DNA of 64,000 nucleotides from Cellulosimicrobium cellulans (GTDB taxonomy: Bacteria; Actinomycetota; Actinomycetes; Actinomycetales; Cellulomonadaceae). Positions 25,683 through 29,630 of the stretch are shown here, piece after piece (the stretch's first letter is position 1; each line of letters opens with the position of its first letter). Under the pieces are notes generated by a model. The model made no database searches, had not been told where the DNA came from, and saw only the letters and a list, made by a program, of their open reading frames with translations. The stretch covers positions 558,001 to 622,000 of the forward strand of contig NZ_JAFGYF010000001.1 in assembly GCF_016921195.1 (NCBI RefSeq), given 5' to 3'. Both the position numbers and the translations under genes were made by a program.

Positions 25683-25738
25683 GGCGGTGACGGACCGTGG
25701 GCGTCGGTACCGGGGGGCCGGGGCGGGAGAATGGTCGC

Positions 25739-25870
25739 GTGACCACCGAGCGACTTCCCCGTGTCCGTGCGTCCGAGCTCGGGCGCGGCCGGCTCAACAC
25801 GGGCGGCAAGAGCCTGACCCTCGCGGACCTACGCGGGAAGATCGTCCTGGCCGACTTCTGGAGGTTCTAG
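25739..25870 (+). pseudogene. Interrupted 5' end of the thioredoxin/NHL gene
   Basis: Forty-three codons from a GTG with a GAGAAT box 6 nt upstream (25727-25732). The peptide reads ...RVRASELGRGRLNTGG, then KSLTLADLRGKIVLADFW, and stops at TAG after RF. It aligns with residues 9-43 of the intact gene at 27603, and is high in GC like the host. The break follows GACTTCTGGA, exactly where the low-GC insertion begins. It is therefore the original host 5' end cut off by insertion, possibly still transcribed. Confidence 0.85.
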
Positions 25871-25995
25871 ACCTTATCGCCAAACTGGTCGGTATCCCAC
25901 CTGCTTGTAATCAGGCCACGAGGGGGTAGCCAACTCCGACGCGCGATGGGAGAATGCTCCTCCCAGCGTAATCGGCGACCGAGAGGGCTTTCCTA

Positions 25996-27576
25996 GTGAG
26001 CGATCCAGTCAGCATTGAGCGCCTGATCTCCCGTGTCCGTCTTGGAGAACTGCGCATCCCGGGATTTCAGCGCGAGTTTGTGTGGGAGCCGCAGCAAGCG
26101 GCGTTGCTGATGGACAGCATCTTCAAAGGTTTCCCTTTCGGGTCTATCCTCTTGTGGCGAACTGGAAACAAGCTAAATACGGAAAAGCGGCTGGGTGGAT
26201 TTGAATTGCCACTACCCGCCAAGGATTACCCAATTGACTACGTCCTTGATGGACAGCAGCGAGTGACCTCGATATTCGCGACGTTTCAGAATGAGATCGC
26301 GGGTGAGGGCGAGGACCCCGAAGTCTGGCTTCCCATCTACTACGATTTCGAAGCAAAGACCGATGCTCAGGAATCGCGATTCGTAGCACTTCAGCTGAAC
26401 GAGGTGGACGATGCTCGCCACTTCCCGCTTAAGACCTTCTTCAATCCCGTTGCGTTTTCGCGCATGTCGCAGGCGCTTCCAGAGGGTAAGTTCGAAGAAA
26501 TTGTAGTAGTCCAACAGCGCTTCGTTTCGACGCTGATCCCGACGCAGACGTTCGAGACCGAGGATCGGGCGAGTGTCGCAATCGTATTTGAGCGGGTTAA
26601 TCGCCTGGGCATCGAGCTTGACATGTTCCAGCTTCTCACGGCGTGGACGTGGAGCGACGATTTCGACTTGCAGGAGCAGTTCGCGCAGCTTTCGGAGAGT
26701 TTTGCCGAGTTCGGGTTTGGTGAAGTCGGCTCGGACAACGATCTCATGCTGCGGTGTTGCGCCGCTATCCTCGTAGCTGACCCCTCTCCTACGGCACTCA
26801 TTGACGTGAACGGTGCGGAGGTGCGCTCACAGTTCGAAACTGTGTCGCGCGCTCTCGAACTGGCCATCGACTTCCTGCGACGCAACCTCCAGGTGCGGCA
26901 CCTAAAGTTCCTGCCATACCAGGCGTTGCTCATTCCTCTCGCAGCGTACTTTTCGATCGACCAGCACAAGGCTGTCACTGACGCGCATCGGCAGGTGTTG
27001 CTGCGGTGGTTCTGGCGGACATCTTTCTCCCACCGGTACAGCGGCAATCCGCTGCGCAATGTGAGAACTGACGTAACGCAAGCAATGGCGCTACGTCGTG
27101 GAGAGGCCTCAGCTCTCGATGCGATTCGCTCCGACGTTGACGAGAGTTTCTTCCTGGACCACTCCTTCCGATCGACAAACGTGGCGTCAAAGTGCTTGAT
27201 CCTCTTACTGGCGCAGCGGCGGCCGAGGTCGTTTATCAGCGGTGAGCATGTCGAGTTGGACACGGTCCTCGCTGAGCCGAACCGTAAGGAATATCACCAC
27301 TGCTTCCCGAAGGCGTATCTCAAGGCAAATGCGATTGAGTTGGATGACGCTCGGATCAACGCGCTGGCAAACATTGCGTTTATCAGTCGTGTTGACAATC
27401 GAACCATCCTCCACAAGGCGCCGTCCGTGTACAGGGCAGAGGATATGCCTGCTGACAGTTCAGACATTGCCGAAGCTGCGCTGATTCCCGAGTCGCTCTT
27501 TGAAGATGATTGGGAGAAGTACTTGACCGAGCGTGCTGCGCTCCTTGCCGGCGAAGCGCAAGGGCTTGTCGCCTGA
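25996..27576 (+). CDS. DUF262 / HNH (GmrSD-like) putative defence nuclease
   Basis: 526 aa from GTG 25996, weak GAGAGGG upstream. The N-terminal DUF262 domain carries IPGFQREFVWEPQQ and the hallmark DGQQR at residues 85-89 (ParB-like nucleotide-binding fold). The C-terminal domain has HHCFPKAY at residues 434-441, followed by NALANIAFISRVDN, as in the HNH/DUF1524 part of GmrSD-type restriction proteins that cleave modified DNA. The middle is helical. Codon use is far less GC-rich than neighbours, so it is horizontally acquired. It is the only gene of the insertion and ends 26 nt before the restored start codon of the interrupted gene. Anti-phage function is inferred from family. Confidence 0.88.
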   Translation: MSDPVSIERLISRVRLGELRIPGFQREFVWEPQQAALLMDSIFKGFPFGSILLWRTGNKLNTEKRLGGFELPLPAKDYPIDYVLDGQQRVTSIFATFQNEIAGEGEDPEVWLPIYYDFEAKTDAQESRFVALQLNEVDDARHFPLKTFFNPVAFSRMSQALPEGKFEEIVVVQQRFVSTLIPTQTFETEDRASVAIVFERVNRLGIELDMFQLLTAWTWSDDFDLQEQFAQLSESFAEFGFGEVGSDNDLMLRCCAAILVADPSPTALIDVNGAEVRSQFETVSRALELAIDFLRRNLQVRHLKFLPYQALLIPLAAYFSIDQHKAVTDAHRQVLLRWFWRTSFSHRYSGNPLRNVRTDVTQAMALRRGEASALDAIRSDVDESFFLDHSFRSTNVASKCLILLLAQRRPRSFISGEHVELDTVLAEPNRKEYHHCFPKAYLKANAIELDDARINALANIAFISRVDNRTILHKAPSVYRAEDMPADSSDIAEAALIPESLFEDDWEKYLTERAALLAGEAQGLVA

Positions 27577-27590
27577 CCCTCGATGTGAGG

Positions 27591-27605
27591 GATACTCGAC
27601 CCGTG
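27591..27605 (+). promoter_or_regulatory. Replacement leaderless promoter supplied by the insertion
   Basis: GATACT at 27591-27596, a 6-nt spacer, then GTG 27603. The lost host promoter has the same geometry (GAGAAT, 6 nt, GTG at 25739). The insertion therefore replaces both promoter and start region. Confidence 0.55.
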
Positions 27606-29630
27606 TCGAAACTGCGTTCTGCTCCTCGTGTCCGTGCGTCCGAACTCTTGGGACGAGGGTGGCTGAATACCGGCGGGAGGAGCCTCACACTTGGTGATTT
27701 GCGGGGAAGTGTGCTGGTTTTGGACTTCTGGACCTTCTGCTGCGTGAACTGCCTGCACGTCCTCGACGAGCTGCGCGAGCTCGAGGAGCGGCACCGCGAC
27801 GTGCTGGTCGTCGTCGGCGTGCACTCGCCGAAGTTCGAGCACGAGGCGGACCCGGCGGCGCTCGCGGCCGCGGTCGAGCGGTACGAGGTGCACCACCCCG
27901 TGCTCGACGACCCCGAGCTCGTCACCTGGTCCGCGTACGCCGCGCGCGCCTGGCCGACGCTCGTGGTCGTCGACCCCGAGGGCTACGTCGTCGCGCAGAT
28001 GGCGGGGGAGGGGCACGCGTCCGCGATCGCCGCCCTCGTCGACGAGCTCGTCGCGGAGCACGACGCGAAGGGCACGCTGCACCGCGGCGACGGCCCGTAC
28101 GTGCCGCCCGCGCCGTCGTCGGGCACGCTGCGCTTCCCCGCGAAGGCGATCGAGCTGTCCGGCGGCAACCTCCTCGTCGCGGACGCCGGGCACCACTCGC
28201 TCGCCGAGCTCCTGCCCGACGGCGAGACGCTCGTCCGGCGCATCGGGTCCGGCGAGCGCGGTCTCGCCGACGGCGGGCCCGACGACGCGCGGTTCGCCGA
28301 GCCCAACGGGCTGTGCCTCGTCCCGGTCGAGCTGCGGTCATGGCTCGAGTACGACGTCGTCGTCGCGGACACGGCGAACCACGTCCTGCGCGGCGTACGC
28401 CTCGCCGACGGTCACGTGACGACCGTCGCGGGCACGGGCGAGCAGTTCATGGTCGGCGGGGTCGAGAACGTCGTGCTGCGGGAGGGGCGGGGCGCCGACG
28501 TCACCGGCCACGGTCCTGCCGCGCCGGGCGGACAGTACCCGCCGCTCGACGTGCGCCTCTCCTCACCGTGGGACGTGACCTGGTCGCAGGACCTCGCGGC
28601 GTTCGTCGTGGCGATGGCCGGGAACCACACGCTGTGGGCGTTCGACGGCGAGCAGGGCTCGATGACGCACCTCGCCGGGACCATGAACGAGGGCCTGGAG
28701 GACGGCCCCGGTGAGTCGGCGTGGTTCGCGCAGCCGTCCGGACTGGCCGTCGGCGCGGACCGGGCGATCTGGGTCGCCGACGCGGAGACGTCGGCGCTGC
28801 GCCGCGTGACCCCGGTGCCCGGCAGGGGCGTCGAGGTCCGGACCGCCGTCGGACAAGGGCTGTTCGACTTCGGCCACCGCGACGGCCCGGCCGAGCAGGC
28901 GCTCATGCAGCATCCGCTCGGGGTCGCGACGCTGCCCGACGGGAGCGTCGTCGTCGCAGACACCTACGACGGCGCGCTGCGCCGGTTCGCGCCCGCGACC
29001 GGCGACGCCGGGAGCGTCGGGGACGACACCTCCGGAACCCGCCTCGCCGGTGAGGTCACGACGCTCGCGACGGGCCTCGCCGAGCCGAGCGGCGTCGTCG
29101 TGCAGGTGGGCGAGGGGCCGGACGGCGAGCCGCAGGTGCACCTGCTCGTCGTGGAGTCCGCGGCGCACCGCCTGACGCGCGTCGCGCTCCCGGCGTCGCT
29201 CGCGGGCGAGGTGCTCGACGGCGGCGCGCACCGCACGCAGCGCCCCGTCACCGACATCGGGGCCGGGCCGCTGTGGCTCGACGTCCCGTTCGTCCCGGCG
29301 CCGGGCCAGAAGCTCGACGACCGGTTCGGCCCGTCGACCGAGCTGCGCGTGAGCGCGACGCCGACCGAGCTCCTGCTGTCCGGGGAGGGCGTCGGCGTCG
29401 AGCTCGGTCGCGACCTCGTCATCAATCCCGAGGTCCGCGAGGGCGTGCTGCACGTGACGGCCCGGGCGGCGTCGTGCGACGTGGTCCCGCTCGGCCCCGA
29501 CGGCGAGCCCGACCCGGACGTGTTCCCCGCGTGCCACCTCGCCCAGCAGGACTGGGGCGTCCCGGTCCGGGTCGTCGACCGAGGCGAGCCGGGCGACGTC
29601 CCGTCGCTCACGCTCCCGCTGCGCGGCTGA
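27603..29630 (+). CDS. Thioredoxin-fold / NHL-repeat protein (hybrid 5' end)
   Basis: 675 aa. Residues 1 to about 150 form a thioredoxin/AhpC-like domain with DFWTFCCVNCLHVL; the redox pair is Cys47-Cys50 and an extra Cys46 precedes it. About 185-545 are NHL/beta-propeller repeats (repeated LPDG, VADT and VAGTG motifs). A C-terminal beta-rich domain follows. Proteins of this architecture resemble NHLRC2; a thiol-redox role is inferred. Codons 1-40 are low in GC and come from the insertion, and the rest is host-type sequence, joined in frame at GACTTCTGGA. It ends before a 90-bp palindromic repeat. Confidence 0.92.
   Translation: MSKLRSAPRVRASELLGRGWLNTGGRSLTLGDLRGSVLVLDFWTFCCVNCLHVLDELRELEERHRDVLVVVGVHSPKFEHEADPAALAAAVERYEVHHPVLDDPELVTWSAYAARAWPTLVVVDPEGYVVAQMAGEGHASAIAALVDELVAEHDAKGTLHRGDGPYVPPAPSSGTLRFPAKAIELSGGNLLVADAGHHSLAELLPDGETLVRRIGSGERGLADGGPDDARFAEPNGLCLVPVELRSWLEYDVVVADTANHVLRGVRLADGHVTTVAGTGEQFMVGGVENVVLREGRGADVTGHGPAAPGGQYPPLDVRLSSPWDVTWSQDLAAFVVAMAGNHTLWAFDGEQGSMTHLAGTMNEGLEDGPGESAWFAQPSGLAVGADRAIWVADAETSALRRVTPVPGRGVEVRTAVGQGLFDFGHRDGPAEQALMQHPLGVATLPDGSVVVADTYDGALRRFAPATGDAGSVGDDTSGTRLAGEVTTLATGLAEPSGVVVQVGEGPDGEPQVHLLVVESAAHRLTRVALPASLAGEVLDGGAHRTQRPVTDIGAGPLWLDVPFVPAPGQKLDDRFGPSTELRVSATPTELLLSGEGVGVELGRDLVINPEVREGVLHVTARAASCDVVPLGPDGEPDPDVFPACHLAQQDWGVPVRVVDRGEPGDVPSLTLPLRG

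Follow-up and report, generated by a model that had tools for sequence, protein, structure and literature searches.

Restoration of the 5′ end of an interrupted target gene is already known from integrative elements: insertion of IMEVchUSA3 in dusA gives that gene a new promoter and N-terminus, the same is stated for SXT in prfC (PMC8409611), and dusA islands in general restore the 5′ end (PMC4482086). Here we describe a 64,000-nucleotide stretch of a Cellulosimicrobium cellulans genome (contig NZ_JAFGYF010000001.1, positions 558,001 to 622,000; ‘the window’ hereafter, part of a 4.58-Mb genome labelled G000), in which an insertion at the DFW codons splits a thioredoxin/NHL gene: a native stump comes first, then an insert of 1,870 bp, then a full gene. 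With good confidence, we assign the insert, as a member that lacks a recombinase, to a group of integrative elements whose specific landing site is the DFW codons of the thioredoxin/NHL gene in actinobacteria. Like SXT and the dusA islands, the insert replaces the 5′ end of its target, here by an in-frame replacement N-terminus; unlike those elements, whose integrases are of the tyrosine type, it is linked to large serine recombinases (LSRs), its target is an actinobacterial thioredoxin/NHL gene, and it carries no recombinase of its own.

Cis-mobilizable elements (CIMEs) have neither integration nor transfer genes, keep attL and attR, and form tandem structures by accretion (PMC5704250). The window insert likewise has no integration or transfer genes. 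At attL its arm is like that of a prophage in a relative (G007), and at attR the core is present beside a recoded arm; repeated end copies resembling accretion are seen in relatives only. As presented in that source, CIMEs are described for lineages of integrative and conjugative elements (ICEs) and integrative and mobilizable elements, whereas here an LSR prophage and small elements are the relatives, the insert rebuilds the 5′ end of its target, and mobility is only proposed. The ssrA islands of Dehalococcoides use a serine recombinase and stand in tandem at one gene, 15 of them without an integration module (PMC3146451); their target, in contrast, is the 3′ end of the transfer-messenger RNA gene, with a 20-bp repeat, and they bring no protein-coding 5′ end. 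According to an LSR atlas, diverse LSRs can share one conserved coding site, for example that of prolyl isomerase, and the targets are described as disrupted (PMC10083194); its main text mentions neither thioredoxin nor NHL. Streptococcal ICEs with a single serine integrase swap 3′ parts of rumA and of the integrase gene (PMC4701971), and Bifidobacterium prophages with a tyrosine integrase rebuild the 3′ end of dnaJ2 (PMC6109161). We recognised no LSR element that supplies the 5′ end of its target in the literature searched, which left out most subscription papers, and novelty is therefore claimed provisionally, for LSR-linked 5′-end restoration.

All features of the locus lie on the forward strand. 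The native stump runs from a GTG at 25739 to a TAG at 25870 (43 codons) and contains the left copy of a 10-bp core, GACTTCTGGA (25853–25862), an attL-type junction placed at the same codons that end the stump in six other genomes. Beyond it come a left (P′) arm (25863–25900), which resembles the arm adjoining the LSR gene of prophage G007, a DUF262/GmrSD_N gene (25996–27576), a short region upstream of the replacement start (27577–27602), and a foreign replacement 5′ end (27603–27732) that closes with the right copy of GACTTCTGGA (27723–27732), an attR-type junction. On both strands of the window the core occurs exactly twice, at 25853 and 27723, spaced 1,870 bp apart. The native remainder (27733–29630) holds the CCVNC redox motif and the NHL repeats; the full gene, from GTG 27603 to 29630 (starts were read from the sequence), has Pfam matches to NHL repeats, Thioredoxin_8 and AhpC-TSA, and its replacement N-terminus is in frame with the rest; repair would presumably leave a functional protein. 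Reading frames, Pfam and PADLOC together give one convincing gene within the insert and no integration or transfer genes, and ARAGORN finds no tRNA in the window.

The rebuilt gene is a mosaic. GC content at third codon positions (GC3) drops from 0.89 in the stump to 0.59 in the replacement 5′ end and reaches 1.00 over the first 402 bases beyond the junction, while GC is about 50–60% in the insert and about 75% around it. Stump and replacement share 76% nucleotide and 75% protein identity; the stump is 87–89% identical to its four nearest sequences (three congeners and the G007 stump), and the first 402 post-junction bases are 96–97.5% identical to those of the five nearest congeners. The same codons have a mean GC3 of 0.943 (standard deviation 0.047, minimum 0.76) in 53 uninterrupted relatives, namely 13 congeners and 40 hosts outside the genus picked by hand from the family-wide matches, which include two genomes with a CCLNC motif (G139, G140) that were not full by the sequence pattern and were counted as uninterrupted hosts. 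Seven replacement 5′ ends from the window and its relatives (GC3 0.59, 0.68, 0.70, 0.78, 0.81, 0.89 and 0.92) fall collectively below these relatives (Mann-Whitney p = 5e-5); a paired comparison with the genome's own stump, made in six genomes, gives p = 0.031, the G084 replacement not being lower. The replacement of G045, the stump of G142 and the virus contig L071 (see below), missed by the sequence pattern, were added by hand. These results uphold the preliminary description, drawn from the letters alone, in its account of a stump, one gene of alien composition and a full gene with a homologous, differently spelled, low-GC 5′ end, joined at both sides by the same 10-bp repeat.

That description had also noted an equal leaderless geometry at the two starts, and this is so: a -10-like GAGAAT (25727–25732) stands six nucleotides before the native GTG (the pair spanning 25727–25738), and GATACT (27591–27596) stands six nucleotides before the replacement GTG. 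A general form of the motif (A-AAT, 5–8 nucleotides, RTG) lies upstream in 32 of the 53 uninterrupted relatives and in four of seven stumps scored, against 7 of 3,350 shuffles; it was matched in only two of the six replacement 5′ ends scored, the window's having no match. The claim that the insert supplies both a 5′ end and a promoter thus holds for the 5′ end, and the promoter is a conjecture, because the general motif is unmatched in the window and found in so few replacements.

The same codons have been interrupted repeatedly. Of the 17 species representatives of the genus, 13 keep the gene uninterrupted; the interruption lies at these codons in three (G000, G012 and G007), and in G014 a contig end truncates the gene. 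A 61-residue query found matches, some of them to paralogues, in 199 of the 221 family genomes at 1e-3, and a 44-residue query was then run on the 74 that had given several matches or an unusual score; foreign DNA stands at the site in eight of the 199, seven of them bearing a stump, the eighth being G053. The same junction with other cargo, which the preliminary description had suggested looking for, is thus recurrent, and the site-specific character of the insertion is borne out by the interruption of the same short core in independent genomes, with arms unrelated to the target gene. Inserts measure 1.87 kb in G000, about 3.3 kb in G012, 53 kb in G007, about 12.6 kb in G142, 610 bp in G031 and 674 bp in G045, and G084 holds two repeats of 564 and 567 bp. 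The cargo frames of two small inserts encode 145 residues (G045; L044 1707–2144) and 111 residues (G031; L043 1485–1820), and the G084 repeats (L046 992–2133) are near-identical units, each made of a stump and a small membrane-protein-like frame, before the full gene. A replacement 5′ end is present at seven of the eight loci; the exception is G007, whose gene loses its start. In G053 the LSR is split and a replacement 5′ end of low GC3 is present without a stump; this locus is a fossil, a decay intermediate of a larger element. Extra high-scoring copies of the N-terminus in the family are stumps, except in G024 and G155, where the second copy lies on a separate contig and was left out of the insertion count. 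In an order-wide sample of 396 genomes, 196 matched the N-terminus at 1e-8 (164 from other families, 32 from this one): all 164 gave a single match, although a diverged stump could fall below that threshold, and among the 32, which include none of the other seven insertion-positive genomes, only G000 gave two.

A clade of LSRs is tied to this site. At E ≤ 1e-40, with at most six first-look candidates scored per genome, the clade is found in four of the 221 family genomes (G007, G012, G053 and G142), in all four at this locus, and in the full members the LSR gene adjoins the left junction. The G012 insert encodes a 573-residue protein with a Resolvase domain, to which the G007, G142 and G053 proteins are 71%, 57% and 49% identical (for G053, the first frame only); the three relatives' LSRs scanned all have the domain, and the clade profile matches phiC31-integrase chains in the PDB (3.2e-9). 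The G007 insert is a prophage, its genes including those for terminase, portal, protease, major head and tape-measure proteins, and that of G142 carries portal and head-protease genes. Contig scans with LSR alignments first returned nothing and later one locus, in Isoptericola luteus NEAU-Y5, which matches the G142 contig and place. An order-wide search gave three weak matches (33–35% identity), none beside an NHL gene, and the four recombinase-less inserts at the site hold no convincing LSR remnant (best E 1.0).

A viral contig carries the 5′ end itself. L067 (IMGVR_UViG_3300037418_001551, 41.6 kb) encodes an LSR with 42% identity to the G012 enzyme. Beside the LSR gene, on the other strand, lie a start codon and some 40 codons of the thioredoxin/NHL gene, ending in GACTTCTGGAAACTCCGCCCC; there is no further match to the thioredoxin/NHL gene in the contig beyond this 5′ end, and DNA polymerase, sigma factor and excisionase genes of phage type lie nearby. 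A second contig, L068, resembles L067 in its arm and its LSR, and nothing in it matches the thioredoxin/NHL gene; both are fragments by their records. A scan of virus contigs with a two-sequence LSR alignment found nothing, and one with four sequences found four loci (two at 42%, two at 25–28% identity); the 5′-end alignment found two contigs, and a DNA pattern the same two. Scans of the virus contigs for the DNA ligase end (see below) and, by exact peptide patterns, for DUF262 returned none.

The attachment arms point in the same direction. The left arms of the window and of G007, the latter beside the LSR gene, align with a score of 31, reached by 4 of 20,000 shuffles (144 of 20,000 do as well for the window and G012), and that score is reached on either strand of the window by just eight 38-mers, which overlap one another and start at 25857–25864, thus at the junction. 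When ten sequences, the uninterrupted site included, were compared in 45 pairs with 1,000 shuffles each, eight pairs reached p ≤ 0.05, about two being expected by chance: G007-G012, G007-G000, G012-G142, G012-G000, G142-G084, G031-L068 (which has no other support), G045-G084 and L067-L068. Inverted symmetry between the arms is present where no 5′ end is carried, in G007 (33 of 3,000 shuffles as good) and L068 (133 of 3,000), and also in G012 (39 of 3,000).

Because the LSR clade sits at this site, replacement 5′ ends occur at seven of eight loci, L067 carries such an end and the window's left arm matches that of G007, the insert is most likely an LSR-type, CIME-like integrant without a recombinase rather than a homing-nuclease element. 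Full members of the group, a prophage and smaller elements, encode an LSR next to the left junction, and this LSR clade presumably catalyses integration here; most elements also bring a start codon and about 40 homologous codons on the side of the attachment site facing the rest of the gene, and integration then yields a complete chimeric gene and a native stump. The window copy has kept its left arm together with a replacement 5′ end, its recombinase having presumably been lost, or never been present and acting from elsewhere, and the DUF262 gene would have entered as cargo of an element that later suffered a deletion, or have been mobilised in trans, or through accretion in cis. Stacking would be possible, since the rebuilt junction resembles the uninterrupted site; the G084 repeats suggest it, and plain tandem duplication also fits them. 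A phage might gain the 5′ end by an aberrant excision that keeps the stump, for which lambda gal transduction is the model, and this would explain why the spare end takes the place of one arm. The pairs with and without a spare 5′ end, G012 with G007 and L067 with L068, offer material for asking how spare ends arise and whether LSR directionality changes, a matter on which spare ends bear because the rebuilt junction resembles attB. In such a scheme, a conserved protein gene can serve phages and defence genes as a landing site and still survive, the missing end being brought along.

Several observations weigh against this reading. The window insert contains no LSR remnant (best tblastn E 1.6), in line with the preliminary description's report of no recombinase, and at E ≤ 1e-40 the clade is absent from the window genome. 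G007 uses the same site without any 5′ repair. By nearest-neighbour nucleotide identity the replacement 5′ ends fall into no single close group or lineage, and in G084 and G045 the replacement is close to the stump (97% and 87%). The right (P) arm has no inverted symmetry to the left (2,203 of 3,000 shuffles are as good for the window, 1,955 of 3,000 for L067); at the window's attR the core is present and the P arm is recoded. Finally, 50,697 phage records hold no member, whether sought by the 5′ end (E ≤ 0.01) or by the LSR (E ≤ 1e-20).

Of the mobilisation routes named in the preliminary description, a decayed element and one moved in trans both fit the LSR relatives and the arm match. A variant of the latter holds that recombinase-less single-gene cassettes are themselves the mobile unit, moved whole in trans by the site's recombinase and swapping cargo and gene-end modules, which we consider possible though rather doubtful. 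Support for it comes from a second gene, read from its protein sequence as an ATP-dependent DNA ligase. Relatives of the window's DUF262 gene in G220 (two frames, 70% and 84% protein identity) and G143 (69% and 52%) lie in the 3′ end of this gene, between the complete gene and a second copy of its 3′ end, and the DNA homology between the window and G220 stops at the ends of the DUF262 gene (397–1972 of the compared stretch, the gene occupying 396–1976). The ligase end has more than one match in 9 of 165 matched family genomes, and we inspected eight of these loci, leaving out G071; frames were judged by eye, with Pfam run on six proteins, and no recombinase was seen among the frames listed at the eight. 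Recombinase-less inserts beside an extra gene end thus occur at two genes (four of eight NHL loci, all eight inspected ligase loci), and some hold one defence-type gene, such as AbiJ_NTD4/PDC-S32 in G116 (1.2e-89) and HEC-04 in G028 (1.1e-181); an ORC-CDC6-like protein in G093 and small frames, neither with a PADLOC match, make up other ligase cargo. Repeated end copies, found in G084 and, at the ligase, in G143 (four, the gene's own included), G011 (four) and G028 (three), also favour such cassettes. However, decay of larger elements gives the same picture, with G053 as a decay intermediate; no recombinase was identified for the ligase site; the DUF262 genes there are themselves broken; and the G084 repeats could be plain tandem duplication.

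Whether the ligase ends are foreign DNA is judged on mixed evidence: the end adjoining the gene is clearly lower in GC3 than the stump in three of five genomes (G220 0.79 and 0.91, G058 0.82 and 0.93, G093 0.66 and 0.98), hardly in G116 (0.96 and 0.98) and not at all in G115 (0.99 and 0.99). The ligase loci (L064 5097–8779, L065 1–4538 and L117–L122) comprise recombinase-less single-gene inserts and arrays of end copies. As a tentative suggestion, the family's single defence-type genes may travel as tiny recombinase-less cassettes defined by a spare gene end, 5′ for NHL and 3′ for ligase; since both the gene and a target-like core are restored by the spare end, cassettes could stack in arrays, and LSR phages that use the same site might integrate behind them and carry them off, having gained the end by aberrant excision. 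The two gene-end hotspots gather small, partly defence-type genes without a recombinase, and element finders based on integrases would miss them.

The window's cargo is a candidate anti-phage gene that probably encodes a defence-type nuclease, in agreement with the preliminary description. Its product matches GmrSD_N (PF03235; 5.2e-26, 92.4 bits against a cut-off of 33.2), the PADLOC candidate defence family PDC-M55C (3.8e-61) and the DUF262 chain of PDB entry 7p9k (1.1e-8), and alignment with a homologue of 31% identity shows that the DGQQR stretch and an HNH-like C-terminal HH..P..N..N stretch are conserved; a fold prediction was unusable (mean predicted local distance difference test score, pLDDT, 35.6). 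Phage and plasmid records contain only distant homologues (at best 28% and 47% identical, respectively). Nuclease-driven homing, in which this DUF262/HNH protein would cut the uninterrupted gene and the recoded 5′ end would protect the element, a natural cleave-and-rescue drive, takes support from the GmrSD_N domain, the HNH-like C-terminal stretch and the heavy recoding of the replacement. It is nevertheless very improbable: DUF262 is not the constant part at the site, since the seven other genomes with an insert there have no match at E ≤ 1e-30, an LSR gene occupies the site in four genomes, one of them in a prophage, the window's left arm matches that of an LSR prophage, the close DUF262 relatives sit in the DNA ligase gene, and GmrSD-type proteins are modification-dependent restriction enzymes. 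The homing route of the preliminary description is accordingly disfavoured. Nor is an ancestral DUF262-NHL order seen: DUF262 matches at 1e-30 occur in four of 221 family genomes, and in the three besides G000 the contig differs from that of the NHL gene.

Homologous recombination with foreign DNA, or duplication followed by deletion, with no site-specific recombination, is hardly credible: stump and replacement are indeed homologous, and 97% identical in G084, but independent genomes whose inserts are unrelated have their junctions at the same codons, no tandem full-length NHL genes were seen among the relatives searched (the family and the 164 other-family genomes), and prophage G007 uses the same junction without a replacement 5′ end.

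Returning to the LSR-type integrants, the virus contig L071 (624–2377) holds a 5′ part of the thioredoxin/NHL gene followed by a different LSR (26% identity to the main clade), which may represent a second LSR lineage that uses the same motif a few codons further on; it was left uncounted because it lies near the end of the contig and may be a chromosomal stump. Some uninterrupted genes have low-GC3 first codons, namely L115 in G175 (0.76), L110 in G173 (0.84) and L018 in G013 (0.84), and these may be replacement 5′ ends of long standing that, like the one in G053, no longer have a stump. In G076 (L047 1260–1400), the first codons of the thioredoxin/NHL gene contain an apparent frameshift.

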